DNA from: Krasilnikoviella flava
GTDB taxonomy: Bacteria > Actinomycetota > Actinomycetes > Actinomycetales > Cellulomonadaceae
Length of the DNA stretch: 64,000 bases
Direction: 5' to 3'
NCBI RefSeq assembly: GCF_900167525.1
Contig: NZ_FUZQ01000006.1
Location: 124,001-188,000, forward strand
Under the pieces are notes generated by a model. It searched no databases. It saw only the letters and a program-made list of their open reading frames with translations, and was not told the DNA's origin. Position 1 is the first letter of the stretch, and every line of letters starts with the position of its first letter. Made by a program: the position numbers and the translations under genes. Positions 20,659-37,916 of the stretch are shown piece by piece.

Positions 20659-21828
20659 TCAGTCCATCGTCACGTCGTGATCGGTGAACCGGTCCGTGAA
20701 CAGCGTGTCGGCCGCGGGGTCGCCGAGGTCCGTCCCCTCGCCCTCGAGCACGTCCACCAGGTCCGCGACGAACGACTCCACCCGGCTCATGTCGTAGGTG
20801 CTGACGGAACCGTCCTCCTCGGGGCCGATCAGCCCCTCCGCGGCGAGCGTCTCGGCGCTGTACGCCGCCTCCCCCGCCGAGTACGGCGAGTACGAGGGGT
20901 CCTGCGCGACGACGTCGACGATCAGGTCGTTCACCGCCTGCGGCGCCGCGACGTAGTCCGCGTTGGCCTGCTGGATCATCGGCACGAGCAGCTCCAGGCA
21001 CGGGGCGAGCTCCTCGAGGCGGTCCGCGCGGACCGAGACGTTCGAGGCGTAGACGTCGTAGCCAACGTCCTTGACGTAGCCGAACCCGACGGACCGGCCC
21101 CACTCGGGCACCTCGTTCTCGTACGTGTACGGCTCGGAGTTGCCGAACCCCTGCTGCACCACGGTCGGGTCGCCGACGAACCGCGCGGGATTGCCGTCGT
21201 AGGTCGTGTCGATCTGGTCGGCGTCGAGGAGGTCGTGCGCCACCATCCAGGCCGGGTAGATCTGGTCGGCGGACACCACGACCGGGGCGCCCGAGGCACG
21301 CACGTCGTCGACGCCCGTGATCTCGGGGTGCGACTCCGGGTCCCACATGAGGATCGCCGGGCTGTGCTTGAGCAGCGGCGCGACGCCGACGACGGGGGCC
21401 TCCGCCGCCGCGGCCACGAGCTGGTCGCCGTGCACCAGGCCCACCGTCACCGTGTCGTCGACGTACATCTGCGACGGCACCGACTGGAACCCGATCGCCG
21501 GCCCGCCGGCCCGCAGGGTGAGGTCGACGCCGGTGTCCTCTCCGTCCGCCACGAGCGCTCCGGTGACCGAGTGCTGCTCCGCGTCGAGCGTCCAGCCCTC
21601 CCCGAGCAGGCCGAACACGGCGCCCTGGTCGGACTGCGGCTGCCACTGCAGCTGGACCACCACCTCGTCCGGGCAGGTGCCGGCGAGGACGCCGCCGCCG
21701 TCGGCGGCCGGCGCCGCGGACGCGCCCGACGACGCGGTGTCCGCGGTGGCCCCGGCGCCGCACCCCGAGAGGGTGAGGAGGCCGAGGACCGCGGCCAGGG
21801 GGACGAGGTGGGTGCGGGACAGGGCCAT
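20659..21828 (-). CDS. NMT1/THI5-like substrate-binding lipoprotein (paralog 1)
   Basis: Extracytoplasmic solute-binding lipoprotein of 389 residues. Signal peptide with lipobox LSGC (Cys23), then a disordered Ala/Gly linker, then a periplasmic-binding fold starting CPDEVVVQLQWQPQSDQG. WQPQ and the following GAVFGL resemble NMT1-like proteins that bind pyrimidine, sulfonate or related ligands. It is clearly a paralog of the second binding protein at 33.4-34.6 kb, sharing the blocks VDAE/LDAE, SVTG(S/A)LVA, (V/L)MWDP and QQGF, but here no permease or ATPase is adjacent. It probably feeds the ABC system of the second operon or acts as a sensor. Divergent from the oxygenase gene. Confidence 0.85.
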   Translation of the reverse strand: MALSRTHLVPLAAVLGLLTLSGCGAGATADTASSGASAAPAADGGGVLAGTCPDEVVVQLQWQPQSDQGAVFGLLGEGWTLDAEQHSVTGALVADGEDTGVDLTLRAGGPAIGFQSVPSQMYVDDTVTVGLVHGDQLVAAAAEAPVVGVAPLLKHSPAILMWDPESHPEITGVDDVRASGAPVVVSADQIYPAWMVAHDLLDADQIDTTYDGNPARFVGDPTVVQQGFGNSEPYTYENEVPEWGRSVGFGYVKDVGYDVYASNVSVRADRLEELAPCLELLVPMIQQANADYVAAPQAVNDLIVDVVAQDPSYSPYSAGEAAYSAETLAAEGLIGPEEDGSVSTYDMSRVESFVADLVDVLEGEGTDLGDPAADTLFTDRFTDHDVTMD

Positions 21829-21881
21829 GGGGGGGCTCGCTCTCTGGGAGGGGTGCTGGCGCCACCACTCTCCCGACGGGC

Positions 21882-21977
21882 GGTATTACATGCAATACCC
21901 CGGTGTTGCGGCCTCGTAAACTCTCGATCGAACGCGATGAGCGACGTTGACAGGGATCAACGCCAGGTAATTACATG
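21882..21977. promoter_or_regulatory. Divergent control region with palindromes
   Basis: GGTATTACATGCAATACC (21882-21899) is a palindrome with perfect 6-bp arms. CGTTGACAGGGATCAACG (21945-21962) has 6-bp arms and resembles the GTTGA/TCAAC operators elsewhere in this cluster. A further TTACATG occurs at 21971-21977. The region separates the binding-protein gene from the oxygenase gene and is a likely target for the GntR regulator nearby. Confidence 0.5.
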
Positions 21978-22030
21978 ACATCACTGTCCAGCGACATCGC
22001 CAGGGACCGTACCCTCCGAGGGAGAACACC

Positions 22031-23017
22031 ATGACGGACACCTACGCACTCGCCGAGCTCCAGAAGGAGTCGCGGATGGGGGGCGTCGGCACCGAGAACG
22101 CCGGCCGCACCATCCCCCGCATCGACCTGTCGGACTTCGAGGAGCGCCGGGCCGAGATCACCGAGCAGCTGTGGACGGCCGCCACCGAGATCGGCTTCTT
22201 CCAGCTGGTCGGGCACGGCATCCCCCAGGACCAGGTGGACCGCGCGTTCGCCGAGTCGGCGCGGTTCTTCTCGCTGCCCGACGACGTCAAGGGCCGCTAC
22301 CCGCTGGTGTCCGGCACCAACGCCGGGTGGGAGAAGCTCTCCCAGACCCGCCCGTCCGTGGGCACCCCCGACCAGAAGGAGTCGTACCAGGTCACCCGCC
22401 CGCGGATGGACGACCTGTGGCCGGACGACGAGCTGCCCGGGTTCCGGGACTTCGTGCTCGGCTTCGAGGCGCAGTGCTGGGACCTCGCCATGCGCGTGCT
22501 GTCCTGCTTCGCCGACAAGCTGGGCCTCGACCGCGACTTCTTCGCCCGCGCGCACGACCCGGCCTCCGCCGAGTACCAGTCGACGCTCCGCCTCATCCAC
22601 TACCTGCCCCTCCCCGCGGACCAGAAGGAGCGCCCCGGGGTGTGGCGGGCGGGTGCGCACACCGACTTCGACTGCCTCACCCTGCTGTTCCAGCGGGACG
22701 GCCAGGGAGGACTGCAGGTGTGCCCGGGCCGCGACGCCGACGCGCAGGAGTGGACACCCGTCACGCCGTCCGACGAGGCGATCACCTGCAACATCGGTGA
22801 CATGCTCATGCGGTGGAGCGACGACCAGCTCCTGTCGAACTTCCACCGCGTGAAGCTTCCCGGCCTGGGCGACTACACGGGCTCCCGCTTCTCCATCCCG
22901 TTCTTCGCGCAAGCGAACCGGGACGTCGCCATCGAGACGCCGCAGGGCACCTACCCGCCGATCACGGCGCACGACTACCTGCAGGAGCGGGTGCGCGCCA
23001 ACTACCGCAAGGGCTGA
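22031..23017 (+). CDS. 2-oxoglutarate/Fe(II)-dependent oxygenase, isopenicillin N synthase family
   Basis: Soluble non-haem iron oxygenase of 328 residues. The N-terminal DIOX_N segment (about 28-150) contains EIGFFQLVGHGIP. The jelly-roll domain has His210 and Asp212 in GAHTDFDCLTLLF, His272 in SNFHRVKLP and Arg286-Phe-Ser288 in SRFSIPFF, giving the complete HxD...H iron triad and RxS 2-oxoglutarate/carboxylate motif. AGGGAG precedes the ATG. It is followed by a GntR regulator gene, and divergent to a solute-binding lipoprotein, so it likely oxidises the imported compound. No antibiotic synthetase genes are present, so penicillin synthesis is not implied. Confidence 0.92.
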   Translation: MTDTYALAELQKESRMGGVGTENAGRTIPRIDLSDFEERRAEITEQLWTAATEIGFFQLVGHGIPQDQVDRAFAESARFFSLPDDVKGRYPLVSGTNAGWEKLSQTRPSVGTPDQKESYQVTRPRMDDLWPDDELPGFRDFVLGFEAQCWDLAMRVLSCFADKLGLDRDFFARAHDPASAEYQSTLRLIHYLPLPADQKERPGVWRAGAHTDFDCLTLLFQRDGQGGLQVCPGRDADAQEWTPVTPSDEAITCNIGDMLMRWSDDQLLSNFHRVKLPGLGDYTGSRFSIPFFAQANRDVAIETPQGTYPPITAHDYLQERVRANYRKG

Positions 23018-23050
23018 GCCGGTGGGTACCGGGCCCGGTTACAGTGCCGC

Positions 23051-23710
23051 ATGACCACCGCCGAGTCCGGCTCCCTGCTCGCCGAGTCCGTCTACCGCAC
23101 GCTCGTCGACCAGATCTTCGAGGGGGCGCTCCCACCGGGCGCCCCCTTGAGCGTCCCCGCCCTCGCCGCCCGGCTCGACGTGAGCCGCAGCCCCGTGCGC
23201 GAGTCGGTCCAGCGGCTCATCCACGAGGGCCTCGCCGTGCACGTCCCGCACGCGGGCGCGCGGGTGCTCCAGCTCGACGAGGACGCCGTGCGTGACGTGC
23301 TCGCCGTGCGGGAGGCCCTCGACGGGCTCGCCGCCCAGGAGGCGGCACGCCGGGCCTCGGCCGACGACGTCGCCGGGCTCCTGGAGCTCGTGGAGCGCCA
23401 GGCGGACCTGCTCGAGGAACCCACGGACCCGCTGCGCGACGCCCGGCTCGACGTCGAGCTGCACACCCGGGTGCGCGAGGTCTCCGGGAACCGGCCGCTC
23501 GCCGACGCGCTGCGGCGGCTCGACGCCCAGGCGCACCTGTACACGTCAGGCATGTGGGCCGAGGAGTCCAACCGGCGTATCGCCGTGGTCGAGCACCGCC
23601 GCATCGCCGACGCCGTGGCCGCCGGTGACGCCGACGGCGCGCGCCGGGCCGCGAGCGCCCACGTCGCCGCGATCTCGGTGCGGATGCGCCGGTGGCGGAT
23701 GTCGCACTGA
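23051..23710 (+). CDS. GntR-family regulator, FCD subgroup
   Basis: FadR-type regulator of 219 residues. Winged HTH at about residues 8-72 with LDVSRSPVRESVQRLIHEGLA; FCD ligand domain from about 78 with a helical bundle and conserved acidic/His residues (DVELHTRVREVSGNRPLA; EHRRIADAVAAGDADGARR). TACAGT lies 5 nt before the ATG and there is no ribosome site, suggesting a leaderless transcript of its own. Likely local repressor of the oxygenase and binding-protein genes; the palindrome at 21882 is a candidate site. Confidence 0.9.
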   Translation: MTTAESGSLLAESVYRTLVDQIFEGALPPGAPLSVPALAARLDVSRSPVRESVQRLIHEGLAVHVPHAGARVLQLDEDAVRDVLAVREALDGLAAQEAARRASADDVAGLLELVERQADLLEEPTDPLRDARLDVELHTRVREVSGNRPLADALRRLDAQAHLYTSGMWAEESNRRIAVVEHRRIADAVAAGDADGARRAASAHVAAISVRMRRWRMSH

Positions 23711-23870
23711 CCTTTCGCCCGGCCGCCGCGTTGCCGCGCCGGGTCGCGCAGGTTGCCCCGAGATTTCCGTGTTGCCCGAGTGTGCGTCCTCTGGGAGCGT
23801 CCTGGACGAAGGGCTGACGGCGGCTGGACCGCGCGTCGGCCCGCGTGTCCGCAGCCAGGGAGGAAGCCCC

Positions 23871-25625
23871 GTGAACAGCACCCTCAGGCACCACGAGAAG
23901 CACGAGAACAGCACCCGGCGCCGCCGGGCCGGTCGCCTCGCCGCCACCGCCGTCGCGACGTCGACCCTGACCGCCCTCGCGCTCGCGGCATCCGCCGCGT
24001 CGGAGCAGCCGGCAGCACCCGACGCTGCCTCCGCCCCGGTCGCCGGGCTCCAGATCGCGACGGTGAGCGCGGCGACCCCGGCCCAGAAGCAACGGCTCCT
24101 GTCGACCGGTCTCGACGTCCTGGACGTCGAGACCCCGCGGGCCGAGGTGCTGCTGTACGGCGAGGCGGACCGTCAGCGTCTGGAGCGCGGCGGCTGGCGG
24201 TTCGACGTCGAGCCGGCCGCCGCCCAGCTGGAGGACCTGCGGGAGGCCCGCGCCACGGAGGACCGGGCTCAGGCCGCCGTGACCGACGACCCCTCGAAGG
24301 CCTCCTCGCTGCCGACCGGCCGGGTCTCCTACCGCGACCTGGAGACGGTCAACGCCGAGCTGCACGACCTGGCCGAGGAGCACCCCGAGCAGGTACGGCT
24401 GTTCGAGATGCCCCGGACGTCCCTGGTCGGACGTCCGATCTACGGCGTCGAGATCGCCGGCGACGTCGCCGCGGAGGACGGGGACCCGGTCTTCCTCCTG
24501 ACCGGGGTGCACCACGCCCGGGAGTGGCCGACGCTCGAGCTCACCACCGAGTTCGCCACCGAGGCCGTGACGAGCTACGGGTCGGACCCGGAGATCACCG
24601 CACTCATGGACTCCGCGCGGATGATCGTGGTCCCGGTGGTCAACCCGGACGGATACGTGATCTCTCGCGAGCTGATCAACGAGATGAAGCGCAAGAACTG
24701 TCGCGTCCGGCCGGGGGTCGTCCCGACGTGGGAGGAGTGCGTCGCCACGACCGGCGACCTCGGCGTGGACCCGAACCGCAACTACGGGCCGTTCTGGGGC
24801 GGCCCCGGGTCGAGCGTGGAGACGAGCGCCGGCAACCACCACGGAGCCCACCCGTACTCCGAGCCCGAGATCGCGAACATGCGCGACCTCATCGACTCCC
24901 ACCAGGTGACCGTCGCGGTCAACGCACACACGCCCGACGCCCGCCTGCTGCGGGCGCCGTCGTCGCCCCTCGAGCCGGTGCCGGCGGACGTCGATCTGTA
25001 CGACGGTCTGGCGCAGGAGCTCGGTTCGCTGCTCGGATGGAAGGCCGGCCCGTGGCCGGAGGTGTACTACGACGCGTCGGGCACCGCGGAGGAGCACGGC
25101 CTGTACGTCAACGGCACGTTCGGCTTCACCCCGGAGCTGATGCCGGGCTTCAGCGGCCTGCAGCGGTTCCACCCGCCGTACGAGTACGTGCCGCAGCAGT
25201 ACTGGGGCACCGGGGAGTACGAGGGCTCCAGCGCCCGCGCGGCCTTCCTCCGGGCGTGGCAGGCGGCGGCCGACCCGGCGCTGCACTCGGTCGTCACGGG
25301 GACCGCGCCCCGGGGCATCGAGCTGACCGTCCGCAAGGACGTCACGGTCGAGTCCTCCGCCACGCCGGTGGCGGACGGCGGGACGCTGGAGTCCGACCAC
25401 GAGCTGGTCTCCACCCTCGAGGTGCCGACGAGCGGCCGGTTCGAGTGGCACCTGCTGCCGTCGCTGCGGCAGTCCCAGGAGTCGTCGACGCTGCTCGAGG
25501 AGTCGTGGACGATCTCGTGCCGCAACCCCGCGGGCAAGCCCGTCCGGTCGGTCGAGGTGACCCTCGCGCGCGGCGACACAGCCGAGGTCGACCTGTCCCG
25601 CTGCCCGAAGGGCCCCCGCCGCTAG
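23871..25625 (+). CDS. Secreted M14 zinc carboxypeptidase
   Basis: Exported metallocarboxypeptidase of 584 residues. A long signal region (basic start, hydrophobic core, AxA near residue 45), a propeptide-like N-terminal part (about 55-145), then the M14 domain. Zinc ligands: His215 and Glu218 in HHAREW; the third His is probably His353 in NAHTPD. DPNRNYGPFWGG carries the substrate-binding Arg; catalytic Glu422 lies in TPELMPGF. A C-terminal beta-type domain (about 475-584) follows. The GTG has AGGGAGGAAG upstream. It may be unrelated in function to the heterocycle genes around it. Its TAG stop shares the CTAG tetranucleotide with the stop of the convergent amidohydrolase. Confidence 0.88.
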   Translation: MNSTLRHHEKHENSTRRRRAGRLAATAVATSTLTALALAASAASEQPAAPDAASAPVAGLQIATVSAATPAQKQRLLSTGLDVLDVETPRAEVLLYGEADRQRLERGGWRFDVEPAAAQLEDLREARATEDRAQAAVTDDPSKASSLPTGRVSYRDLETVNAELHDLAEEHPEQVRLFEMPRTSLVGRPIYGVEIAGDVAAEDGDPVFLLTGVHHAREWPTLELTTEFATEAVTSYGSDPEITALMDSARMIVVPVVNPDGYVISRELINEMKRKNCRVRPGVVPTWEECVATTGDLGVDPNRNYGPFWGGPGSSVETSAGNHHGAHPYSEPEIANMRDLIDSHQVTVAVNAHTPDARLLRAPSSPLEPVPADVDLYDGLAQELGSLLGWKAGPWPEVYYDASGTAEEHGLYVNGTFGFTPELMPGFSGLQRFHPPYEYVPQQYWGTGEYEGSSARAAFLRAWQAAADPALHSVVTGTAPRGIELTVRKDVTVESSATPVADGGTLESDHELVSTLEVPTSGRFEWHLLPSLRQSQESSTLLEESWTISCRNPAGKPVRSVEVTLARGDTAEVDLSRCPKGPRR

Positions 25626-27105
25626 CTCCGCGTGAGGGCACGGGTGTCGCGCGCGTCGTGCGACGGGTGCGGCACCCGTGCCCGGGGGGACACGAGCTGC
25701 TCCGCGGTGACCGCCAGCCTGCGCCCGTCGGCGTGGGCGGCGCGCTCGATCCGCTCGGCCAGCTCGCCGTCGGCACGCTCGGCCAGCGGCGTCGTGGCGC
25801 GCCCGTCGCGGGCGACGCACCGACCGCCCACGTAGGTGGCGCGCAGGTTGCGCAGGCCGCACGCCAGGACGTAGGTCGCGACGACGTCCCAGACCGGCCC
25901 GGTGCTCGGCGCGCGGTGGTCGACGAGCACGAAGTCGGCGTGCTTGCCGACCTCGAGGCTGCCCACCCGGTCGGCGACCCCGAGCACCTCCGCGGACCCG
26001 AGGGTGTGCAGGCGCAGCACGTCGCGCGCGGACAGCACGGCGGCGTCGCGGTGCAGCGCCCGCTGGGAGTAGAGGCCGAGGCGCATGTTCGACCAGGGGT
26101 CGGAGATGTCGGTGCACGACTGGTCGTCCAGCCCGACACCGACGGCGATGCCGGCGTCGCGGTAGCGCACCACGTCGGCCACGCCCGACCCGAGCCGTCC
26201 GTTGGACGTCGGCTGCCAGACCACCGGGCTGCCCGCCGCCGCGACCCGGTCGACCATCGCGTCGGTCGGGTGCACGAAGTGCCCCAGAGGAGGTCCGGCC
26301 CGAGCGCGCCGGCCTCCTCGTACCAGGCGAACTTGGCGCGCTGGGTGTCCAGGCCCTCGGCCGTCTCCACGAGGTGCGCCTGGTCGGTGATGCCGTGCTC
26401 GCGCATCACGTGGGCCTCGAGCTCCGCGGTACGCGGCCCCGCCGCCCACTGCACCGCACCCATGACGGAGACCCCGAGGTGCTGGTCGCAGCCCGATCGC
26501 TCGGGGGCGCGCGCGGCGTCGACCATGCGGGCGAAGCGCGTCAGCACCTGGTCCTCCGGGCCGGACTCGTCGTCCAGCCGGATCGCGTGGATCGCCCGCA
26601 GGCCCGCGTCGACGGTGCCGTCCATCTGCCGGGTCGTGTAGTCGTCGGGGTGCACCCGGCCGAGCACGTTTCGGGCGGTACCCGGGTCGTACAGCCAGGT
26701 GACGCCCGACTGCATGAAGTTGTAGGCGCTGGTCACGCCGTTGGCCAGGAAGTCGAGCGACCCGTGCAGCGTCGCCCAGTACATGTCCTCCGCCTCGGTG
26801 TGACGGAAGAGCTCCATCATGGAGCGCACCCACGGGTACAGGGTCGCGTCGGGGGCGATCCCCCGCAGGCCCGAGGTGAACAGGTGCGAGTGCGCCGAGA
26901 CGAACCCGGGGGCGACGATCGCGCCGCCGGCGTCCAGCACCGGTGCGCCCTGGTCGTCGGGCGGCGGCTCCCCGGGCCCCAGGGCGACGATGCGGCCGTC
27001 GGAGCCGACCTGCAGCCAGCCGAAGAACCATTCCGGGCCGGAGTCCGCGCCCGGCAGGAGCAGGGCGTCGACGACGGTGAGGGCGAGCGGGGCGGTGCGG
27101 GTCAC
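25622..27105 (-). pseudogene. TRZ/ATZ-type amidohydrolase with a +1/-1 frameshift
   Basis: Amidohydrolase related to triazine hydrolases and purine/pyrimidine deaminases, about 494 residues if the frame is repaired. The first part (from GTG 27105, with GAAGGG upstream) contains the metal motif VSAHSHLFTSG and QAHLVETAEG. The second part, in another frame, contains GHFVHPTDAMV and GVGLDDQSCTD, the remaining ligands. The break falls at a run of four G/C bases, 26282-26285; one extra G would restore TGG-GGG-CAC. Both halves look well conserved, so this is either a very recent mutation or a sequencing error. Last gene of the flavin reductase operon. Confidence 0.8.
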
Positions 27106-27160
27106 GGGGGTCCCTTCGACGTGCGCGGGTGGGCGGCGCGGGGTCGGCGGCACGGCGGTC

Positions 27161-28576
27161 TCAGGCCAGCCCGGGTGGCGGGTGGAAGACGCCGGCGGGG
27201 TCGAGCCGGGCGCGCACGGCCTGCACGCGCTCGATCCCGCCGGCCTCCCAGCAGCGCGCGAGCCGGTCGGGAGTGCGGCGCAGGTCGGCCTCGCCGACGT
27301 AGTGGCCGGTGGTCCCGCCGGCGAGCGCCGCGAGGGTCGTGGTGGGCCAGGCCAGGTTCGCGTCGTCGTCCTCGCCCGGCGACCAGACCGCGTACGCGGC
27401 GACGGTGAGCGTGCCCAGCGGCCGGTGCAGGGGGTCCGGGGAGGGTGGTGCCGACCGCCGGTACGAGGCGGAGCTCACGAGCACGCTCGACGCGGCCGAC
27501 GGCGCGCCGGCGAGGTGCGGGGCGAGCCGGGGCAGGACCTCGGCGTAGCCGGCGCGGCTCCACGCCTGCTGCGCCACGCACCCCGCGCCGGGCCGTGCGG
27601 GCTCGTCGAGCAGCAGCCCCGGCATGGTCGTGGCGCTGGACACCACGGCGCTCGTCGTGGCCGGCAGCGCACGAGAGACGGGCTCGAGGAGCTCGTCGGC
27701 GTGCGCGTGGTCCCGGCCGAACGCCGTGACCGACGCGACGACCCCGCCGGCGGGCGCGAGCACCAGCGTGAGCTCGACCTCGGGGGCCACCACGGCGGCG
27801 AGCGCGTCGGCCCACGTCCCGATCGCCGTGAGCCCGTCCCGGCCGGCGGCCCGCATCCGCACCGAGCGTCGCCGTACCACGGGCTCCGGCCACAGCTGCA
27901 GCCCGAAGGACGTGACCACCCCCGGGAAGGCGGGGCCGGCCCCGCGCAGCACGGCGAACGCCTCGGGATCTGACGCGTCGTCGAGCACGGTGCGCCGACC
28001 GTCGGCCAGCACCACCTCGGCGTCGCGGACCGACTCGCACGCGCTGCCCCACGCGCCCTGGTTCCAGCCGTTGCCGCCGGCGAGCAGGAAGCCGCCGAGC
28101 CCCACGCTCGCCTTGTGTCCCACCGGGAAGGCCAGCCCTGAGCCGTCCAGCGACTGCGCGAGCGCGAGCGACGTCGCGCCCGGTCCGACGCGTGCCGTGC
28201 GCGCTGCGCGGTCGACGCGCACGTCGTCGAGCGCCGAGACGTCCAGCGCGAGGGCGCCCTGCGCCAGGGCCGTGAACGCGGTGCCGTGCCCGCCGGAGCG
28301 CACGGTCACGGGCCGGCCCGCCCGGAAGGCGTGCCGGACGGCGGACGCGACGTCCGCGGCGTCGCGCGCCGCGACCACGAGCGCGGGACGGTCGTCGGGC
28401 ACCACGCCCGAGACGGCGAGCGCCCGACGCGACCGCTCGTACGCCGCGTCCCCCGGCCGCACCGCTCGGGTCAGGACGTCGGCCCGGTCGGCACGGTCGG
28501 CACCGTCGGCACCGTCGGCACCGTCGGCACGGTCGGCACGGTCGGCACCGAGTGCCGCGACGGACCGGTCGGTCAC
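27161..28576 (-). CDS. FAD-linked oxidoreductase, berberine-bridge/6-HDNO type
   Basis: Oxidase of 471 residues with a PCMH FAD-binding domain at about 45-215 and a C-terminal BBE-like domain. PVTVRSGGHGTAF near residue 93 contains the His that binds FAD covalently in this family. The second covalent Cys site is not seen (HKASVGLGGF instead), so attachment is probably single. The N-terminus carries an Ala-Asp-Arg/Gly tripeptide repeated eight times, encoded by a 9-bp minisatellite. Of two GTGs I chose 28576: AGGAG lies at 5-nt spacing and it overlaps the flavin reductase stop by GTGA. Probably oxidises a C-N or C-O bond of the pathway intermediate with O2. Confidence 0.86.
   Translation of the reverse strand: MTDRSVAALGADRADRADGADGADGADRADRADVLTRAVRPGDAAYERSRRALAVSGVVPDDRPALVVAARDAADVASAVRHAFRAGRPVTVRSGGHGTAFTALAQGALALDVSALDDVRVDRAARTARVGPGATSLALAQSLDGSGLAFPVGHKASVGLGGFLLAGGNGWNQGAWGSACESVRDAEVVLADGRRTVLDDASDPEAFAVLRGAGPAFPGVVTSFGLQLWPEPVVRRRSVRMRAAGRDGLTAIGTWADALAAVVAPEVELTLVLAPAGGVVASVTAFGRDHAHADELLEPVSRALPATTSAVVSSATTMPGLLLDEPARPGAGCVAQQAWSRAGYAEVLPRLAPHLAGAPSAASSVLVSSASYRRSAPPSPDPLHRPLGTLTVAAYAVWSPGEDDDANLAWPTTTLAALAGGTTGHYVGEADLRRTPDRLARCWEAGGIERVQAVRARLDPAGVFHPPPGLA
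28478..28549. repeat. 9-bp minisatellite, eight units
   Basis: Eight consecutive 9-bp units of GTCGGCAC[C/G] type (first unit GTCGGCCCG). Being a multiple of three, it encodes an in-frame Ala-Asp-Gly/Arg repeat near the N-terminus of the FAD oxidoreductase. Copy number could vary without frameshift. Confidence 0.9.
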
Positions 28577-29106
28577 GCGCACTCCTGCTCGGACCGGGCA
28601 GCGCCGACCGGGTGGAACGCCCGGTCGAAGTGCACCAGCGCGCGCCCGTCCGCGGCCGCCGCCCCGTGCACCCGCACGACCCGGCCCACGAGCAGCACGT
28701 GGTCGCCCGCCTCGACCTCAGCCCAGGTCTCGCACTCCACGACGTGCCGCGCGACGTCGGCCAGCACGGGGACGCCACCCTCGCCCGGCCGGACGGCGAG
28801 CCCGGCGAACTTGTCCGTGGCCTTGGAGGCGAACACGGCCGCCACGTCCTCACGGTCGTGCGGCAGCACGTGGACGGCGAACCTGCGGGCCGCGCGCAGC
28901 GGCTCGAGCGTGCGGCTGGTGCGCCCCACCCCGACGGCGACGAGCGGCGGGTCGAGGCTCACGCTCATCACCGCGGTGGTGGTCAGCCCGGCCGGGACGC
29001 CCCCCGCCGTCGTCGTGACCACGCACACCCCGCTCGCCAGCCCGGCCATCGCGTCGCGGAACCCGTCGGCGACGGACCCGCGAGGCGATGTTGATGTCAT
29101 CAACAT
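28573..29106 (-). CDS. Flavin reductase domain protein
   Basis: FMN-binding split-barrel flavin reductase of 177 residues, of the HpaC/DIM6 type that supplies reduced flavin to a partner monooxygenase. Motifs: ASGVCVVTTTAGGVPAGLT at the N-terminus, SVSLDPPLVAVGVGRTSRTL, FAVHVLPHDRED, and HVLLVGRVVRV with the terminal HFDRAFHPV. No classical FMNH2-dependent monooxygenase is in the operon, so the partner is either the FAD oxidoreductase or encoded elsewhere. The ATG at 29106 has AGGA at 8-nt spacing; the start codon is embedded in a 19-bp palindrome, which suggests repression at this site. First gene of a three-gene operon. Confidence 0.87.
   Translation of the reverse strand: MLMTSTSPRGSVADGFRDAMAGLASGVCVVTTTAGGVPAGLTTTAVMSVSLDPPLVAVGVGRTSRTLEPLRAARRFAVHVLPHDREDVAAVFASKATDKFAGLAVRPGEGGVPVLADVARHVVECETWAEVEAGDHVLLVGRVVRVHGAAAADGRALVHFDRAFHPVGAARSEQECA
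29088..29106. promoter_or_regulatory. 19-bp operator-like palindrome over the flavin reductase start
   Basis: ATGTTGATGTCATCAACAT has perfect 9-bp arms around one central base. It overlaps the first codons of the flavin reductase gene and lies 132 bp from the divergent XRE-cupin regulator. A related 19-mer precedes the second operon at 37898. Confidence 0.7.
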
Positions 29107-29835: not shown

Positions 29836-31207
29836 GGCCGCGCGCGAGGTCGCGCTCGTCGGCCGTCACCAGACGGCCGTCACGCACCACGACCCGCCCG
29901 CCGACCACGACGTGGCGCGGTCGCCGCCCCGGCGAGGCCCAGAGCAGGCCGGCGACCGGGTCCGCGACCCCCGCGTCGGCAGCGCCGCCGACGTCCCAGA
30001 CGCACAGGTCCGCCGCGGAGCCGGGCTCGAGCCGGCCGAGCTCGGGCCGCCCGAGCCCGCCCGCCGACCCGGCGGTGGCGGCGTCCAGGAGCTCCCGCGC
30101 CGTGAGCTGGCGGCCCACCAGCGCCGACACCTGCATCGCGAGGCGCGCGTCGGCGAGCAGGTGCCCGGCGTCGTTCGACCCGCCGCCGCTCGTGCCGAGC
30201 CCCACCCCGATCCCGGCGGCGAGCAGCCGGGCCACGGGCGCGACGCCCCAGCCCATCGGCACGTCGCAGCCGGGCGCGTGGGTCGCGTGCGCGCCCGACG
30301 CCGCGAGCCGGTCGATCTCCGCGTCGGTGACGTCGCACAGGTGCGCGACGGTGACGTCGGGTGCGAGCCAGCCCCACTCGTCGAGCAGGTCCAGCGGGCG
30401 CCGGCCGTACCGCTCGAGCGCGGCGGCGACGTCGACCTGCTCGTTGGCCTGGGTGCGGCGCCGCAGGCCACGGCGCGCCGCCACCTCTCCCAGCAGCCGG
30501 AAGGTCGCCTCCCGGTCGCTGTGCACCCCGGCAGGCCCGACGGCCACCTGCACGCCACCGTCCGCGCGCACCCCGCCGCGCCCGTGACCATCCAGCCCAT
30601 CACCATCCGGCGCGTCGCCGACCAGCGCGGCCGCGATCGCGTCGGCGCTCAGCGCCGCGGCCTCCGGGTCGTCCCCGGCGGTGCCGCGCACGAGGACGAG
30701 GCGCGCCCCGAGCTCGTCGGCCGCGCCGGCCGCCGCCACCGCCAGGTCCACCGTGTCCGCGGGGCCGAGCGACGCCGGCCACGTCAGGTGGTGGTCGGCG
30801 ACCGTCGTGACCCCGCTGAGCAGGGCCTCGGCGAGGCCCGCCCGCGCCGCCGCGCCGACCAGCTCCGCGTCGACCCCGGCACGCCGGTACGCCGCGCCCA
30901 TGAGGTCCAGCCACCGACGCATCGGGACGCCACGGGTGCCGGGCAGCGTGCGGAACGCCGTCTGCAGGAGGTGGTGGTGGGCGTTCACGAGGCCAGGCGT
31001 CACGACGCAGCCCGTCGCGTCGAGCAGCTCCGCCCCGGCGACGGCGGCAGCGGGCGCGGCCCCGACGGCCCGCACCCGCCCGTCGCGGCCGACGACGACG
31101 TCCCCACCCGCCTCGCCCTCGGTCGCGCCCGGCCCGGTCCGCACGGCGAGCGCGCCGCGCACGACGAGGGCAGCGGTCGCCCCCGGTGCCGTCCCCGGCG
31201 CGCTCAC
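29804..31207 (-). CDS. 8-oxoguanine deaminase-like amidohydrolase with altered metal site
   Basis: Amidohydrolase-fold protein of 467 residues. NAHHHLLQTAFRTLPGTRGV matches the 8-oxoguanine/isocytosine deaminase group at the first His pair, and VAHLCDVTDAE supplies another His. However, where relatives have a His in HxHLAE this protein reads RTQANEQ, and the usual catalytic Asp of GxDG is a Ser in GVGLGTSGGGSND. Both changes are clear in the DNA. It may bind no metal, use a different one, or have another role. The GTG overlaps the creatininase-family stop, so it is translated with that amidase. Last gene of the seven-gene operon. Confidence 0.85.
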   Translation of the reverse strand: MSAPGTAPGATAALVVRGALAVRTGPGATEGEAGGDVVVGRDGRVRAVGAAPAAAVAGAELLDATGCVVTPGLVNAHHHLLQTAFRTLPGTRGVPMRRWLDLMGAAYRRAGVDAELVGAAARAGLAEALLSGVTTVADHHLTWPASLGPADTVDLAVAAAGAADELGARLVLVRGTAGDDPEAAALSADAIAAALVGDAPDGDGLDGHGRGGVRADGGVQVAVGPAGVHSDREATFRLLGEVAARRGLRRRTQANEQVDVAAALERYGRRPLDLLDEWGWLAPDVTVAHLCDVTDAEIDRLAASGAHATHAPGCDVPMGWGVAPVARLLAAGIGVGLGTSGGGSNDAGHLLADARLAMQVSALVGRQLTARELLDAATAGSAGGLGRPELGRLEPGSAADLCVWDVGGAADAGVADPVAGLLWASPGRRPRHVVVGGRVVVRDGRLVTADERDLARGLSRRLARVAA

Positions 31208-32019
31208 GCCCGGTCCCGCGCGGCGAGTGCGGCTGCGCCGTCGTCGGGGGTCGTGAAGCGCGCCGCCTCGACGAGGGTGCGCGCCAGCTGCTCGACGGCA
31301 TGCTCGAACGCCTCCTTGCCCGCCTCGGCGGTCGCCGTCGTCGGGTCGCCCACGTGACCGTCGGGGCCGAAGTCGCTCGACAGCCAGCCGAACGACGTGG
31401 CGCGGCCGAACCCGATCTGCTCGTACGCGAGCAGACCCTCGGGCACGCGGCGCTCCGCGAGGTCCATGTGCACCAGCTCGGGGCGCAGGTGCAGCATGAG
31501 CGACGTCTCGCCGTGCCCGCCGTGCACGCCGAGGCCGTGCTCGTCGCCGGACGCCGGGACGCCGCCCTGGTCGCGCGGCGTCGCGACGTGCGCGAAGAAC
31601 GTGCGCAGCCCGAACCGGCGGCGCAGCTCACGGTTCGCCACCTGCCCGAGGGCGGAGTTGCCGCCGTGCCCGTTGACGAACACCAGGCGGGTGATCCCCG
31701 ACGCGGCCAGCGACCGGCCGACGTCCGTCAGCACCCGCATGAGCGTGTCCCACGACAGCCAGATCGTGCCCGGGAACCCCGCGTGCTCGTCCGACTTCGT
31801 GTACGCGAGGGGCTCCAGCAGCACCACCGAGGCCGCGCCGGAGCGGGCCACCGTCTCGACCGCCGCGGCCGCCGTCTCCGACGCGGTGACGAGGTCCGTG
31901 GACACGGGCAGGTGCGGGCCGTGCTGCTCGATGGCACCGAGCGGCAGCACCGCGACCGTGTCGGCGGGCAGCGCCTCGACCTGCCGCCAGGTGAGGTCCG
32001 CGAGACGCGGGGCGGGCAT
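31204..32019 (-). CDS. Creatininase-family amidohydrolase
   Basis: Metal-dependent amidase of 271 residues, the normal length. Motifs: PLGAIEQHGPHLPVSTD with Glu31, His33 and Asp42 as metal ligands; VNGHGGNSALG near residue 118; HGGHGETSLML with the last Glu ligand near 178. Members open cyclic amides (creatinine) or remove formyl or peptide groups from ring compounds. Here the neighbours suggest hydrolysis of a cyclic amide formed during heterocycle breakdown. The ATG overlaps the FAD oxidase stop (TGATG) and its own stop overlaps the next gene. Confidence 0.9.
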   Translation of the reverse strand: MPAPRLADLTWRQVEALPADTVAVLPLGAIEQHGPHLPVSTDLVTASETAAAAVETVARSGAASVVLLEPLAYTKSDEHAGFPGTIWLSWDTLMRVLTDVGRSLAASGITRLVFVNGHGGNSALGQVANRELRRRFGLRTFFAHVATPRDQGGVPASGDEHGLGVHGGHGETSLMLHLRPELVHMDLAERRVPEGLLAYEQIGFGRATSFGWLSSDFGPDGHVGDPTTATAEAGKEAFEHAVEQLARTLVEAARFTTPDDGAAALAARDRA

Positions 32020-33395
32020 CAGCGCACCCCGATGTTGACGCGGGTGTCGACCGGCGGGGAGTCCACGAGCTTGCCCGGGTTGAGCAGGCCCTTGGGGTCC
32101 GTGGTCCGGGCGACCTCGCGCGCGAGGTCCACGTGGCGGTCGACGTACCACTGGTGCGGCGAGTGCACGCCGAGGCCGAGCGCCTCGAGGCGCGGGATCC
32201 CGGCGAGCACCTCCTCCTCGGACACGTAGTCCGCGACCACCATCGCGAGCGGCGCGGAGCCCATGAGCTCGAGGTGCAGGTGCACGTCCCCGTCGTAGAC
32301 CGCGCGCACCTCCTCCGGGCGGTCCCAGTGCGCGGGGCCGCCGGTCTCCATGTGGAACCACGTGCGGTCCGGGTGCGCCTTCTGCAGGAAGTACACGGGG
32401 TGGTTGTACGACATCGACGACAGCTTGTCCGTCTCCGCGTAGTCCGCGAGGCTCGCGACGACGGCGCCGCCCGCGGCGACCACCCGCGCCTCGACCTCCG
32501 CCACCGTGGAGGCCTCCGCGATCACCCGCAGGCTGTGCCGCGCCGGGTCGAGCGGCACCTCGGCCGGCAGGCTCGGCACCAGCGCGGGCGGGTCGGCCGA
32601 CGCGAGCCGCGGCAGCACGGGCAGGTCGAGCAGCGAGCGGTGCACGCCCGTCATCGACCCCCAGTCGTCGAACGCCGCGTAGATCGCGACCCAGTCCCGC
32701 GCCGGGTCGGTGGCGATCTCCAGCTCCACGACCACCCCGGTCACCCCGTACACGTGCACGTACGGCGTGACGTCGGGGCCCGTGACGGTGAACGTGGTGC
32801 CGCTGCCGTCCATGGGCGCCACCGTGAGGGAGAGCACGAAGCCGTCGGACGTCGAGCCGCGCTCGATCGTCCCGGTGCCGGCCGAGCCGCCGCCCACGAA
32901 CCCGCCGATCGTGGACCCCTTCGTCGACGGGTAGATCCAGATGTCCCGGCCGGCGGCCCGCGCCGCGGCGTCGACGGCGGTGATCTTCGCGCCGGCGCCC
33001 GCCGTCACCGTGCCGGAGTCGTTGACGCGGATCGCGTCGAGCCCGCGCAGGTCCAGCACGAGACCGCCGTCGAAGGGCGTCGCCTGCCCGTAGTTCCCGG
33101 TGCCCGACCCCCGGGGGGTCACGGGGACGCCGTGCTCGTAGGCGATCCTCAGCACCTCGGCGACCTCCGTCCCCGAGCGCGGGCGGACGACGGCGTCCGG
33201 CAGGTACCGGCCCGCGGGGACCTTCTCCTGCAGGACCGGCGACATCCGCGACCAGTCGGCGGAGGTCTTGAGCAGCAGCTCGGCGTCCGTGGAGACGGCC
33301 TCCGGCCCCAGCAGGTCCGCGATCTCGGCCGCGGCCAGCGCCGCCCGTCCGGAGGTGGCCGTGCTGCTGCGCGGGGTGGTGTGCGAGGTGGTCAT
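32019..33395 (-). CDS. FAD-binding oxidase, GlcD/VAO type
   Basis: Flavin oxidase of 458 residues. PCMH-type FAD-binding domain at about 60-240: YLPDAVVRPRSGTEVAEVLR, VTPRGSGTGNYGQATP, GAGAKITAVDAAARAAGRD and GGFVGGGSAGTGTIERGS. C-terminal FAD-oxidase_C domain ends with TTDPKGLLNPGKLV, the usual closing motif. No covalent His is seen in the RGSGTG loop. It probably oxidises an alpha-hydroxy acid or amine-type intermediate. Located between the binding-protein gene and the creatininase gene in the same operon; AGAGGA precedes the ATG. Confidence 0.9.
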   Translation of the reverse strand: MTTSHTTPRSSTATSGRAALAAAEIADLLGPEAVSTDAELLLKTSADWSRMSPVLQEKVPAGRYLPDAVVRPRSGTEVAEVLRIAYEHGVPVTPRGSGTGNYGQATPFDGGLVLDLRGLDAIRVNDSGTVTAGAGAKITAVDAAARAAGRDIWIYPSTKGSTIGGFVGGGSAGTGTIERGSTSDGFVLSLTVAPMDGSGTTFTVTGPDVTPYVHVYGVTGVVVELEIATDPARDWVAIYAAFDDWGSMTGVHRSLLDLPVLPRLASADPPALVPSLPAEVPLDPARHSLRVIAEASTVAEVEARVVAAGGAVVASLADYAETDKLSSMSYNHPVYFLQKAHPDRTWFHMETGGPAHWDRPEEVRAVYDGDVHLHLELMGSAPLAMVVADYVSEEEVLAGIPRLEALGLGVHSPHQWYVDRHVDLAREVARTTDPKGLLNPGKLVDSPPVDTRVNIGVR

Positions 33396-33411
33396 GTCGT
33401 CGGTCCTCTCC

Positions 33412-34602
33412 TCAGCTGCCCATCGAGATCGCGTCGTCGATGAACTCGTTGGTGTACAGCGTCTCGGGGTCGATGTCGGCCGAGCCGATCTGGCCCGCGT
33501 CGACGAGGATCGGCGCGAAGGTGCCGACGATCTCCGTCATCCGCTCGGGGTCGATCCGGCCGAACACCCCGGACTCCGGGTCGTCGGTCACGAGGTCGAG
33601 GTCCTGCATGGTCCGGACGGAGAAGTCCGCCACGCCCTGCGAGTACGTCCACCCGGTCTGGTAGGCGTCGACGAGGTCGACGATCAGGTCGTTCGTGGCC
33701 TGGGGTTCCTCGAGGTAGTCGATCTGCGCCTGCTGCATGATCGGCACGAGCCTGGCGAGGCAGTCCGCGTTCTCCTCGACCTTGTCGGCCCGCACCGTGA
33801 GGGCCTCCGGGTACACCGAGTAGCCGACGTCCGCGAGCAGCTGGTAGCCGACCGCCTTGCCCCACTGCGGGATCTCGTTCTCGTAGATGTACGGCTCGGC
33901 CGTCGCGAACCCCTGCTGCAGGGTGCTCGGGTCGGAGACGAAACGCTGCGGCGTGCCCTCGTAGGAGAGGTCGATCTGCGTGTCGTCGATGATGCCCTGG
34001 GAGACGAGCAGCCGCGGGAACACGTCGCCGGAGGACACGACTGGATCGCCGGCCGCCGCGGCGTCCTCGATCGTCGTCGCGCCGTCGTGGCTCGCCGGGT
34101 CCCACATGACGATCTGCGGGCTGGTGGTGAGCTGGGACGCCACCGTGACCACGGGGTTGTCGGCCAGCGCGGTGATCTGCGCGTCGGTCGTCACGGCGCC
34201 GAGCAGGATCGAGTCGTCGAGGTACATGAGCGACGGCACGGGCTGAAAGTTGACGTTCGGCCCGCCGGGCCGCACCTCGACGTCCACCCCCGTGTCGACG
34301 CCCTGGGCCACGAGGGATCCGGTGACCGACTTGGCCTCGGCATCCACCGTGTGGTCGGTGCCGACCAGCGAGTACATCGCGCCGTGCTCCGCCTCGGGCT
34401 GCCAGTCCTGCTGCATGACGACGGTCTCCGGGCAGACGCCGGACAGGTCCAGCGGACCGTCCGCCTCGGCCGCCGGGGCGTCGAGGGGGGTCGCGCCGCC
34501 CTGCTCGCCGGCGGCGTCCGCGCCGGCGCACGCGGTCAGGGCGAGCAGCGGGACCACGAACAGCGCGGCGACGGCGATCCTTCGGGGTCGGGAGAGTGCC
34601 AT
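33412..34602 (-). CDS. NMT1/THI5-like substrate-binding lipoprotein (paralog 2)
   Basis: Solute-binding lipoprotein of 396 residues, signal peptide with lipobox LTAC (Cys25). The mature part starts after an Ala/Glu linker with CPETVVMQQDWQPEAEHGAMY and includes VNFQPVPSLMYLDDS and IVMWDPASHDG. It is the ligand-recognition subunit of the ABC importer encoded just upstream (permease and ATPase). AGGAG lies 5 nt before the ATG. A 128-bp gap separates it from the permease gene. It is a paralog of the lipoprotein at 20.7-21.8 kb; both may share the one permease/ATPase pair. Confidence 0.9.
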   Translation of the reverse strand: MALSRPRRIAVAALFVVPLLALTACAGADAAGEQGGATPLDAPAAEADGPLDLSGVCPETVVMQQDWQPEAEHGAMYSLVGTDHTVDAEAKSVTGSLVAQGVDTGVDVEVRPGGPNVNFQPVPSLMYLDDSILLGAVTTDAQITALADNPVVTVASQLTTSPQIVMWDPASHDGATTIEDAAAAGDPVVSSGDVFPRLLVSQGIIDDTQIDLSYEGTPQRFVSDPSTLQQGFATAEPYIYENEIPQWGKAVGYQLLADVGYSVYPEALTVRADKVEENADCLARLVPIMQQAQIDYLEEPQATNDLIVDLVDAYQTGWTYSQGVADFSVRTMQDLDLVTDDPESGVFGRIDPERMTEIVGTFAPILVDAGQIGSADIDPETLYTNEFIDDAISMGS

Positions 34603-34730: not shown

Positions 34731-35714
34731 TCAGGCGCCGCTGCGGCCGTACCAGCGGCCGATGACCGCACGGTCGAGCGCGGCGAAGACGGAGAACATC
34801 GCGACCCCGAACAGGGCGGTGAGGATGATGGCCATGAACAGGGAGTCCATGTTGAGCCGCAGCGTGTAGGTGCGCAGCAGCCCGCCGATCCCCGGCGAGC
34901 CCTGCTGGAAGAAGAAGTCGCCGACGATGGCGCCGATGACGCTGAGGCCGGCGGCGTTGCGCAAGCCCGTGAAGATCGACGGCAGCGCCGCCGGGAACTG
35001 GAGCTTGAAGAGCCGCTGCGCGCGGGTGGCGCGGTTCAGGGTGAACAGGTCGTGCGCGGCGGGGCTCGCGGACTGGAGCCCGAACAGGGTGTTCGCGATC
35101 ATCGGGAAGAGGGCGATGATGACGCACACCACGATGCGGGCGCTGAACCCGTAGCCCATCCAGATCCCGATGAGCGGCGTGAGCGCGAGGATCGGGATGG
35201 TCTGCAGGATCACCGCGTACGGGTAGAGGATCCTCTCGGCCCAGCCCGACTGCACCATGACCACGGCGTACCCGATGCCGAGCACGACGGCGATCGCCAG
35301 GCCGCACAGGGCGACGCCGACGGTCTGCCACAGCGCGTCGAGCATCGGGCCCATGACGAGCGGGTTGCCGAGCGTCGTGCCGAGGACCTGGTGCAGCGGC
35401 GGCAGCAGGAAGCGGCGCTCCGGGCTGAGGACGAGGTAGGTGACGACGTACCAGACGGCGACGATGCCCGCGACGGCCGCGAGCAGCGGTCCGACCTTGG
35501 CGACGGCGCCGGCCAGGCGACGCCGTCCGGCGGCCCGGCCGGACCCCGCTCGCGGCGTGGGCCCCGAGGGCGGGACGGACCCGGCGGCGGGGGTCTCGGC
35601 CGAGGCCACGGTGGAGCTCGCGGCCGGGGTCGCGGTCGACGTCACGTGGGCCTCCTGGGGAGCGGTCCGGTTCTCGGGGTGTGCGGTGGGCTGGTGGACG
35701 GCGGCGGTGCTCAC
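34731..35714 (-). CDS. ABC transporter permease, BPD (SsuC/TauC-type)
   Basis: Integral membrane subunit of 327 residues. An unusually long Pro/Ala/Thr-rich N-terminal tail (about 85 residues) precedes six or so TM helices. The EAA-type loop reads RATRAQRLFKLQFPAALPSIFTGLRNAAGLSVIGAIVGDFF (blocks: LFKLQFPAALPSIFTGLR, then SVIGAIVGDFFF), the ATPase contact typical of nitrate/sulfonate/bicarbonate-type importers. The GTG at 35714 overlaps the ATPase stop (GTGA). A later GTG (VTSTATP, about 20 codons in) is an alternative start. Confidence 0.9.
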   Translation of the reverse strand: MSTAAVHQPTAHPENRTAPQEAHVTSTATPAASSTVASAETPAAGSVPPSGPTPRAGSGRAAGRRRLAGAVAKVGPLLAAVAGIVAVWYVVTYLVLSPERRFLLPPLHQVLGTTLGNPLVMGPMLDALWQTVGVALCGLAIAVVLGIGYAVVMVQSGWAERILYPYAVILQTIPILALTPLIGIWMGYGFSARIVVCVIIALFPMIANTLFGLQSASPAAHDLFTLNRATRAQRLFKLQFPAALPSIFTGLRNAAGLSVIGAIVGDFFFQQGSPGIGGLLRTYTLRLNMDSLFMAIILTALFGVAMFSVFAALDRAVIGRWYGRSGA

Positions 35715-36505
35715 GAGTGCTCCCCCAGTGCGGCGGAGACCTCGCCGACGAGCGCACCGAACTCGGGCTCGTAGCGCAGCTCGGGCGTGCGCGGGTACCC
35801 CCACGGCACCGGGATGTCGGCGACCACGCGCCCGGGCCGGCCGCTCATGACGACCACCCGCGTGGACAGGTAGACCGCCTCGGACACCGAGTGGGTGATG
35901 AACAGGCCCGCGAAGCTCTTGAGCGCGAAGAGGCTCTGCAGCTCCGTCTGCATGCGCAGCCGGGTGATCTCGTCGAGTGCCCCGAACGGCTCGTCGAACA
36001 GGGCCAGGTCGGGTTCCGCGACCAGGGCCCGCGCGATCGAGACCCGCATCCGCATCCCGCCGGAGAGCTGGCGCGGGTGCTGCTTCTCGAACCCGGACAG
36101 CCCCACGAGGTCGAGCGCCTCGCGTGCCCGGCGGCGCCGCTCGAGCTTGGGCACGCCCCGCAGCTCGCCGACGAGCTCGACGTTGCGCAGCGCGCTGCGC
36201 CACTCCAGGAGCGTCGGCTCCTGGAACACGTAGGAGGTCGACGTGGCGTTCACCTCGACGTCCCCGCCGGACACCTCGTCGAGCCCCGACGCGAGCCGCA
36301 GCAGGGTGGATTTGCCGCACCCCGAGGGCCCCACGACCGACACGAACTCGCCGGCGGAAACGGAGAGGCTCACCTCCTCGAGGGCGACGGTGCCGGTGGG
36401 GAAGGCCTTGGTCACGTCGTCGAGCACGAGCGTGCGCGTCATGGACGCGGGTCGCGGGGTCGTGCTGGTCGTGCTCGTGCTTGTCGTCGTGGTCGCTGCG
36501 CTCAT
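35711..36505 (-). CDS. ABC transporter ATP-binding protein (SsuB/TauB-type)
   Basis: Nucleotide-binding subunit of 264 residues. Walker A GPSGCGKST with Lys65, Q-loop VFQEPTLLEW, signature LSGGM, Walker B LALFDEPFGALDE, H-loop FITHSVSEA. All catalytic motifs are intact. The first 20 residues are a Thr/Ser-rich tail; Met22 (MTRTLVLDD) could be the true start, but GAGGTG precedes the first ATG. Partner of the adjacent permease; 4 bp after the cytosine-deaminase-like gene. Confidence 0.93.
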   Translation of the reverse strand: MSAATTTTSTSTTSTTPRPASMTRTLVLDDVTKAFPTGTVALEEVSLSVSAGEFVSVVGPSGCGKSTLLRLASGLDEVSGGDVEVNATSTSYVFQEPTLLEWRSALRNVELVGELRGVPKLERRRRAREALDLVGLSGFEKQHPRQLSGGMRMRVSIARALVAEPDLALFDEPFGALDEITRLRMQTELQSLFALKSFAGLFITHSVSEAVYLSTRVVVMSGRPGRVVADIPVPWGYPRTPELRYEPEFGALVGEVSAALGEHS

Positions 36506-36509
36506 CGGG

Positions 36510-37862
36510 TCACCTCACGAGCTGGTCGGGTACAGGGGCCGGGACGACGGCCGGCCGGCGCGGCGTCACGAGGGAGAGGTCGCGGCGGACACGGGTGTCC
36601 GCGACGACGCGGTTGCCGGCGAGGACGACGCGCGCCTGCTCCGCGCCGGCCAGCACGTCGCCCAGCGGCACGTCGGGCACGAGGACCAGGTCGGCGCGGT
36701 CCCCGAGGGACAGGCCGGCCGGCGGCAGGCCGAGCACGGTGCGGGGCGTCGTCGTGACCGCGGCGAGCGCCTCGCGCTCCGTGAGGTGGGCCGCGGTCAT
36801 CAGGAGCGCGGTCGTCTCGAACGGGTCGCAGCTGCCGACGGGGTTGAACGGGTCGCGCACGTTGTCCGCCCCGGCGGCGACGGGCACCCCGGCGTCGAGC
36901 AGCGCGCGCACGGCGGTGAGGCCGCGGGGGGCGAGGTGGGTGGCGTCGCGACCCTGCAGGTAGAGGTTGGTGATCGGCAGAGTCACGACGCCGATGCCGG
37001 CGCGCGCCACGAGGTCGACGACGGGGGCGAGCCGGTCGGGCGGGAGGGAGCCCAGCCGGACGGCGTGGCTCGCGGTGACCCGCTGGGTCAGGCCCCGGGC
37101 GATGACCTGCCGGGCGAGGTCCTCGACGTCGAGCGTCCCGTCCGCCGGCAGCGCCGTCTGCTCGTCGACGTGCAGGTCCACGGGCAGGCCCGTGCGCTCC
37201 GCGACGTCGAGCACGCGCGTCACTTCGCCGTGCGGGTCGGGTGCGAGGTGCGGGCACCCGCCCAGCACGTCCACACCGCGGGCGGCGGCCTCGAGGAGCA
37301 CGGCGGTCGGCGTGTGCCACCCGCCCAGCAGGCAGACCTGCACGGTCACCGACCCCGCGAGCTCCTCCCGGAGCGCGAGGAGCGCGTCGAGCATGCGCAG
37401 CGGGTCTCCCTCGGCGGGGGCGTCGACGTGGGTGCGGATCGTGGTGATGCCGCGGCTCGCGTACCGCTCGACGGCGGACCGTGCCCGGTCCAGCACGTCG
37501 GAGCGGTCGATCCGCGGTGCGAGCGCGCGCCATCGGGCGACGGCGCCCTCGAGGTCCGCCCCGCGTCCCGCCGGGACCCGCGCGGCGGTGAACGCCTTGT
37601 CGAGGTGGGCGTGCGGCTCGCAGGCCGCGGGCAGCGCGAGCCAGCCGCGGGCGTCCAGGCCGGGGCCGGGGAGGTCGGACGACGGTCGCGGCCCGCTCGG
37701 GGCCAGCGAGACGACCCGGCCGCCGGAGAGCCCGACGTCGACGAGCGTCCCGTCGAGCTGCCGCACGCCCCACAGGGCGGCGACCTCAGCCCCGGCCAGG
37801 GTCGCGGCTCCGTCGGGTGGCCCGACCGGGAGCGGGGCGACGGTTGTGGCGTCGTGCTGCAC
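36510..37862 (-). CDS. Cytosine deaminase-like (CodA/AtzC-type) amidohydrolase
   Basis: Amidohydrolase of 450 residues. Metal ligands: EPHAHLDKAF near residue 83, DLHVDEQ near 228, ASHAVRLGSL near 263, and GADNVRDPFNPVG near 339, the full set of the cytosine deaminase/isopropylammelide hydrolase group. So it likely removes an amino group from, or opens, a pyrimidine- or triazine-like ring. Of the GTGs at 37877 and 37862, I chose 37862 because AGGAG lies 5 nt before it. First gene of the seven-gene import/catabolism operon; a 19-bp palindrome lies 36 bp upstream. Confidence 0.9.
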   Translation of the reverse strand: MQHDATTVAPLPVGPPDGAATLAGAEVAALWGVRQLDGTLVDVGLSGGRVVSLAPSGPRPSSDLPGPGLDARGWLALPAACEPHAHLDKAFTAARVPAGRGADLEGAVARWRALAPRIDRSDVLDRARSAVERYASRGITTIRTHVDAPAEGDPLRMLDALLALREELAGSVTVQVCLLGGWHTPTAVLLEAAARGVDVLGGCPHLAPDPHGEVTRVLDVAERTGLPVDLHVDEQTALPADGTLDVEDLARQVIARGLTQRVTASHAVRLGSLPPDRLAPVVDLVARAGIGVVTLPITNLYLQGRDATHLAPRGLTAVRALLDAGVPVAAGADNVRDPFNPVGSCDPFETTALLMTAAHLTEREALAAVTTTPRTVLGLPPAGLSLGDRADLVLVPDVPLGDVLAGAEQARVVLAGNRVVADTRVRRDLSLVTPRRPAVVPAPVPDQLVR

Positions 37863-37897
37863 GACGTCTCCTCTCACCGAGCGTCGACCGAGCGTGA

Positions 37898-37916
37898 ATG
37901 TTGATCAGAGGAACAT
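37898..37916. promoter_or_regulatory. 19-bp operator-like element upstream of the import/catabolism operon
   Basis: ATGTTGATCAGAGGAACAT: the outer ATGTT/AACAT arms are perfect, and the left half ATGTTGAT is identical to the palindrome at 29088. The length is also the same (19 bp). Likely site for a common regulator. Confidence 0.6.

Follow-up and report, generated by a model that had tools for sequence, protein, structure and literature searches.

The DNA analysed here, referred to as the window, is a 64,000-nucleotide stretch (positions 124001-188000 of contig NZ_FUZQ01000006.1) of the 4.85-Mb genome of the actinobacterium Krasilnikoviella flava. On balance, we favour the reading that an island of genes at positions 20659 to 37916 of the window serves to break down a pterin-type ring, which would be either a free pterin or a product of folate breakdown, and that this operon consists of a conserved core and optional modules. 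The operon itself is real, widely conserved and catabolic. This kind of operon, of which the window carries a variant, is barely described in the literature searched, and no paper on the cluster was found in the open-licence PMC literature. The original prediction for this DNA had proposed that one N-heterocycle is imported, oxidised, deaminated and hydrolysed at an amide bond; this was well supported for the core, and the left part of the island was loosely tied to it. Little is known of what becomes of the pterin ring of folate in soil. With an operon that is common to Actinomycetota and Pseudomonadota and whose oxygenase clade includes a solved structure, the question can be tested gene by gene.

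Gene calls were made from GC-position analysis, Pfam and NCBIfam scans, and three-frame translation, and every gene type named by the original prediction was located in the island by profile scans and translation. The right part contains, on the minus strand, AH1, a putative CodA/AtzC-type amidohydrolase that we propose as the pterin deaminase (36510–37862), an ATP-binding cassette (ABC) ATPase (35711–36505) and permease (34731–35645), the lipoprotein solute-binding protein SBP2 with a predicted ThiY-like fold (33412–34602), the FAD_binding_4 flavoprotein FAD1 (32019–33395), the predicted creatininase-family amidase CRN (31204–32019), and AH2, a TrzN/8-oxoguanine-deaminase-like amidohydrolase (29804–31207). 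Because FAD1 and CRN overlap by 1 base and CRN and AH2 by 4 bases, the stretch from AH1 to AH2 reads as one probable operon. Next to AH2 on the plus strand is an XRE-cupin regulator gene (29239–29835). The minus-strand genes formed two runs, 37862–29804 and 29106–25622, with the plus-strand XRE-cupin gene between them, which corrects the predicted arrangement of two minus-strand operons plus a divergent pair.

SBP2 matched proteins in 34 of the 297 genomes of the order (E ≤ 1e-20), and 23 of the 39 SBP2 places outside its own genome also held FAD1, with CRN in 23/23 of those. From a pattern scan based on the FAD1 alignment, the best 80 of 210 loci were kept, all Actinomycetota by title and biased to close relatives, the closest being those of Promicromonospora and Cellulosimicrobium. 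The two sets apparently overlap (L037/L088, L169/L087), and their counts were not summed. Within 10 kb of FAD1 in the 80 loci, CRN was found in 76, AH1 and SBP2 in 73 each, the ATPase in 72, the permease in 71, the XRE-cupin gene in 67, and AH2 in 59. The set of CRN, AH1, SBP2, ATPase, and permease was complete in 69 of the 80, and 8 of the other 11 were on contig-truncated stretches. At E ≤ 1e-80, AH2 occurred in 17 of the 297 genomes, all within the 25 having FAD1 and at a distance of at most 8.6 kb; the core and AH2 are tied together. The relatives also carried genes that the island does not have, namely those for PNPOx-like proteins (61 of 80), 2Fe-2S reductases (47), MTHFR-like proteins (28), short-chain dehydrogenases (20, some distant), AtzH-amidases (12), FmdA (9), cupins (9), MBL-fold proteins (9), and RutB-like proteins (5). 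The extra reductases and amidases are consistent with a ring being oxygenated and opened. Separately, in the Microbacterium variants (L118, L135, L136, L137, L145, and L149) two neighbouring MTHFR-like matches were located beside the cluster.

In the phylogenetic tree, FAD1 rows (n = 18, the window and 17 of the 80 loci), plasmid rows (n = 6), and the solved flavin oxygenase 6v42 were grouped in one clade with support of 91/86, in which FAD1 formed the sister clade to 6v42, with 28% identity. Ten paralogues from its own genome and the FAD2 oxidase of the left part, several of them on long branches, fell outside this clade. The FAD1 motif was present in 80/80 FAD1 loci and in 6v42, and in 1 of 12 own-genome loci. 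The PDB title of 6v42/6v43 describes the enzyme as "involved in folate catabolism". When the 6v42 stretch was compared with plasmids by tblastn, 184 records matched, 109 of them from Rhizobium, with a best identity of 67%. Among nine plasmid regions inspected, core families, checked by homology, were found on six, those of Rhizobium johnstonii 3841, Comamonadaceae OTU4NAUVB1, Paroceanicella, Pseudooceanicola, Rahnella, and Pantoea. The linked solute-binding protein, ATPase, permease, creatininase, and CodA-type deaminase occur both in plasmid operons and in the 69 complete actinobacterial loci. The six loci of Pseudomonadota carry RidA and FMN or VanB-type reductases, whereas the actinobacterial loci carry AH2, XRE-cupin, PNPOx, and 2Fe-2S reductase genes. 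In the stretches shown, Rhizobium TP5 had ABC genes, the DIOX oxygenase gene (see below), and a cytosine-deaminase-type gene, and Shinella had ABC genes, RidA, and deaminases, both without FAD1.

Fold comparisons were made with Foldseek and cover what Foldseek ranked. The predicted fold of SBP2 belonged to the NMT1/THI5 superfamily, with formylaminopyrimidine- and thiamine-binding proteins as the best matches; this likeness to ThiY is one of predicted fold, whereas the identity to 3ix1 was 20% and the sequence was below the Pfam cut-off. SBP1 (20659–21828, minus strand), a lipoprotein solute-binding protein without an adjacent permease of its own, is a paralogue of SBP2 with 43–47% identity in two comparisons, and is probably also part of the importer with the one permease/ATPase. 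Of two predicted NMT1-like lipoproteins, a related pair was thus confirmed, one with a predicted fold in the superfamily, but neither reached the Pfam NMT1 cut-off: SBP1 scored 18.7 bits (cut-off 20.5), and no Pfam family came up at E ≤ 1 for SBP2, which was scanned within a longer open frame of its reading frame. A whole-genome NMT1 search gave two other places only, neither of them SBP1 nor SBP2. CRN scored 237.6 bits with PF02633 (cut-off 31.3) and was the sole match to this family in its own genome (L187, contig positions 155276–156001). It failed the creatininase equivalog TIGR04448 (97.7 bits against 235), and a mycofactocin role was rejected because the MftE equivalog TIGR03964 was also missed (139.5 bits against 172).

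AH1 aligned to CodA across 384 residues and resembled cytosine deaminase, the match to AtzC being weaker, and its best NCBIfam cytosine deaminase score was below the cut-off (192.4 bits against 403). Of 73 relatives, 66 passed a length filter and were aligned with the window copy, and the metal and catalytic set of HxH, His, Glu, His, and Asp was kept in 67/67 copies; the loop that we take to be the cytosine-recognition loop of CodA was not conserved. The identity of AH1 with the plasmid amidohydrolases was 28–35%. AH2 was closest by sequence to the TrzN/8-oxoguanine deaminase/AtzB family of solved structures, with a near full-length match at E 7e-58. In the corresponding alignment, for which 50 of 59 relatives passed the length filter and were joined by the window copy, AH2 retained HxH, a Glu, and the His of beta 6, but the metal-binding His of beta 5, present in TrzN, was replaced by Gln in 51/51 copies, and the ligand position of beta 8 was Ser in 51/51 copies in contrast to Thr in TrzN. 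This latter position is presumably Asp in deaminases, which agrees with the deaminases of loci L166 and L168. The changes at two ligand positions in all aligned members and the strict linkage to FAD1 raise the idea, to which we give only slight weight, that AH2 is not a deaminase but catalyses some other reaction of an oxidised pteridine. It might, for instance, rearrange the ring of tetrahydroxypteridine to give xanthine-8-carboxylate, by which pterins would pass to the xanthine/urate route; the distribution of uricase given below would agree with this. Such an activity (EC 5.5.1.3) was reportedly found in early work on Alcaligenes. AH2 represents a coherent amidohydrolase clade with an altered metal site.

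The proposed catabolism of a pterin-type ring would proceed as follows from the co-encoded proteins, whose families are assigned by sequence. The ring would be taken up by the ThiY-like ABC importer, and AH1 may strip the exocyclic amino group, converting a pterin to a lumazine type. FAD1 would then oxygenate the deaminated ring with flavin supplied by a reductase, which may be FRed (28573–29106, minus strand) in the window, a PNPOx or 2Fe-2S reductase in other actinobacteria, and in Pseudomonadota one of the FMN or VanB type. CRN would hydrolyse the resulting cyclic amide, and AH2 and the amidohydrolase AH3, joined in relatives by FmdA, AtzE-like, and RutB-like amidases, could complete ring opening and free ammonia, with the XRE-cupin protein as a likely local regulator. 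We based the choice of a pterin on the PDB title in the FAD1 clade, the pterin deaminase of Variovorax with its endoribonuclease genes, and the purine genes near the cluster. Folate-degrading Variovorax is reported to have an amidohydrolase-type pterin deaminase with conserved endoribonuclease genes downstream (PMC9513972); the pterin deaminase of Variovorax sp. F1 and Arad3529, both amidohydrolases, deaminates a cyclic amidine, and the downstream endoribonuclease genes match the RidA genes that follow an amidohydrolase gene in Pantoea and Rahnella. The original prediction knew of no characterised pathway with this gene set; this needs qualification, since FAD1 groups with a solved protein titled for folate catabolism and amidohydrolase-type pterin deaminases have been characterised.

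Several observations weigh against this reading. The word "folate" hangs on one PDB title, no paper on 6v42 was found in the open-licence PMC literature, and the low identity and sister position of FAD1 mean that its substrate may differ. All 5 species sampled from the same genus lacked FAD1, and an SBP2-like protein occurred without FAD1 in 16 of the 39 stretches (two being contigs of less than 6 kb), so the SBP2-type transporter family serves elsewhere also. AH3 (25622–27105, minus strand), a TRZ/ATZ-type amidohydrolase, has a frame switch near 26262–26294, with its N- and C-terminal parts in different frames, and the pathway may therefore be incomplete in this strain; all three predicted amidohydrolases are present, but this one is broken. 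The open frame is at least 453 aa in 19 of 20 relatives, and by reading of the translation the two pieces together carry the canonical metal and catalytic set. In the neighbour census, which scanned 111 of 212 open reading frames (one of the 111, L116:15519-16907, being added from a separate listing), no carboxypeptidase-G/M20 or aminobenzoate family was among the 25 of 125 families listed; folate side-chain handling was hence not seen, and degradation of whole folate including the glutamate side was rejected. Of the purine genes, which were taken in favour of a pterin, XdhC was beside 15 loci and uricase beside 11 (single-linkage families with one representative typed, the locus sets overlapping). 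Among the genomes searched, uricase was present in 18 of the 24 that have FAD1 and in none of the 8 that lack it, but it was close to the cluster in only 3 of those 18, two of the three from one genus. XdhC showed no clear tie to FAD1 (20/24 with, 5/8 without) and was discarded as a marker of the cluster.

The same uricase distribution supports a purine as the ring (an 8-oxopurine, methylated or isoguanine-like), with the operon feeding the xanthine/urate route, as do the XdhC, uricase, and thiamine pyrophosphate (TPP) enzyme families adjoining some loci and the fact that AH2 and AH3 had 8-oxoguanine deaminase as their top NCBIfam hit, although under the cut-off. We regard a purine as rather unlikely, because the clade of FAD1 indicates folate, uricase is seldom close to the cluster, and AH2 differs from the 8-oxoguanine deaminase family at the two ligand positions. 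If the ring were a pyrimidine, for example the hydroxymethylpyrimidine moiety of thiamine, this would agree with the predicted fold of SBP2, with the cytosine deaminase similarity of AH1, and with the acetamidase/formamidase genes that 9 of the 80 loci carry, but such a ring would hardly need three enzymes of deaminase type together with an oxygenase like 6v42, and no thiamine-synthesis or thiaminase family was among the 25 of 125 families listed in the census, which makes this substrate improbable. Triazine degradation was also rejected: AH2 is TrzN-like and AH1 matches AtzC, though less well than CodA, but the pADP-1 region shares one amidohydrolase only (L170, beside cyanuric acid genes), whose identity is 32% with AH1 and 52% with the amidohydrolase of the Comamonadaceae operon. 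Riboflavin/lumichrome catabolism resembles the proposed pathway in that an actinobacterium opens a fused pyrimidine ring by hydrolysis, but the published cluster (PMC12746152) uses a P450, a TPP-dependent decarboxylase, and a catechol dioxygenase, none of which is among the island genes, and this candidate was rejected.

The left part of the island bears on a further alternative, that the island combines at least two independent catabolic units, chance neighbours with no shared substrate. Its gene order is SBP1 (minus), DIOX, an isopenicillin-N-synthase-type 2-oxoglutarate/Fe(II) oxygenase (22031–23017), and a GntR-FCD regulator (23051–23710), both on the plus strand, a zinc carboxypeptidase of the Peptidase_M14 family (about 23871–25625, plus; Pfam E 6.8e-40), then AH3, FAD2, a FAD_binding_4 oxidase nearest to EncM (27161–28582), and FRed, all minus. 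Near FAD1, counted as above, AH3 was found in 20 of the 80 loci, FRed in 11, FAD2 in 5, SBP1, GntR, and DIOX in 2 each, and the M14 gene in none. At E ≤ 1e-40, DIOX occurred in 4 of the 297 genomes, its own and three of one genus without FAD1, in which DIOX followed by GntR faces an 8-oxoguanine-deaminase-type enzyme, an arrangement that also favours a purine. The original prediction had named scattering of the genes in relatives as its refutation; the core stays together, and the left part lies mostly away from FAD1. Independent units nevertheless seem very doubtful to us, given the tie of the core to AH2 and the plasmid loci. The Rahnella region has DIOX (60% identical), an amidohydrolase of deaminase type, and a second solute-binding protein, followed by a VanB-type reductase, AH1-like protein, RidA, CRN, solute-binding protein, ATPase, permease, and FAD1-like protein, and hence both window parts are adjacent there. 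DIOX and its module are beside the core in the window, two Cellulosimicrobium genomes, and Rahnella, and in Paroceanicella DIOX is inside the operon. We read the DIOX module, from its gene content, as a putative separate N-heterocycle unit recruited beside the core of the pterin operon, in which DIOX, GntR, and SBP1 may form an add-on importing or oxidising a related ring. The M14 carboxypeptidase, missing from the predicted inventory of otherwise present gene types, was rejected as a pathway member, being the best match of no stretch in the 80 and 39 loci (E ≤ 1e-8).

Beyond AH1, a mycothiol-synthase gene (plus strand) is followed by a polyphosphate kinase gene. A family with a GNAT-type representative (L100 4179–5279; also L072, L073, L076, and L077) flanked the AH1 side in five relatives, and together with the mycothiol synthase in the window this suggested a stable genomic location. 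ARAGORN also called a tRNA-Cys with an unusual anticodon (aca) at 18784–18877 on the plus strand, inside an acetate-CoA ligase gene, which is probably spurious.
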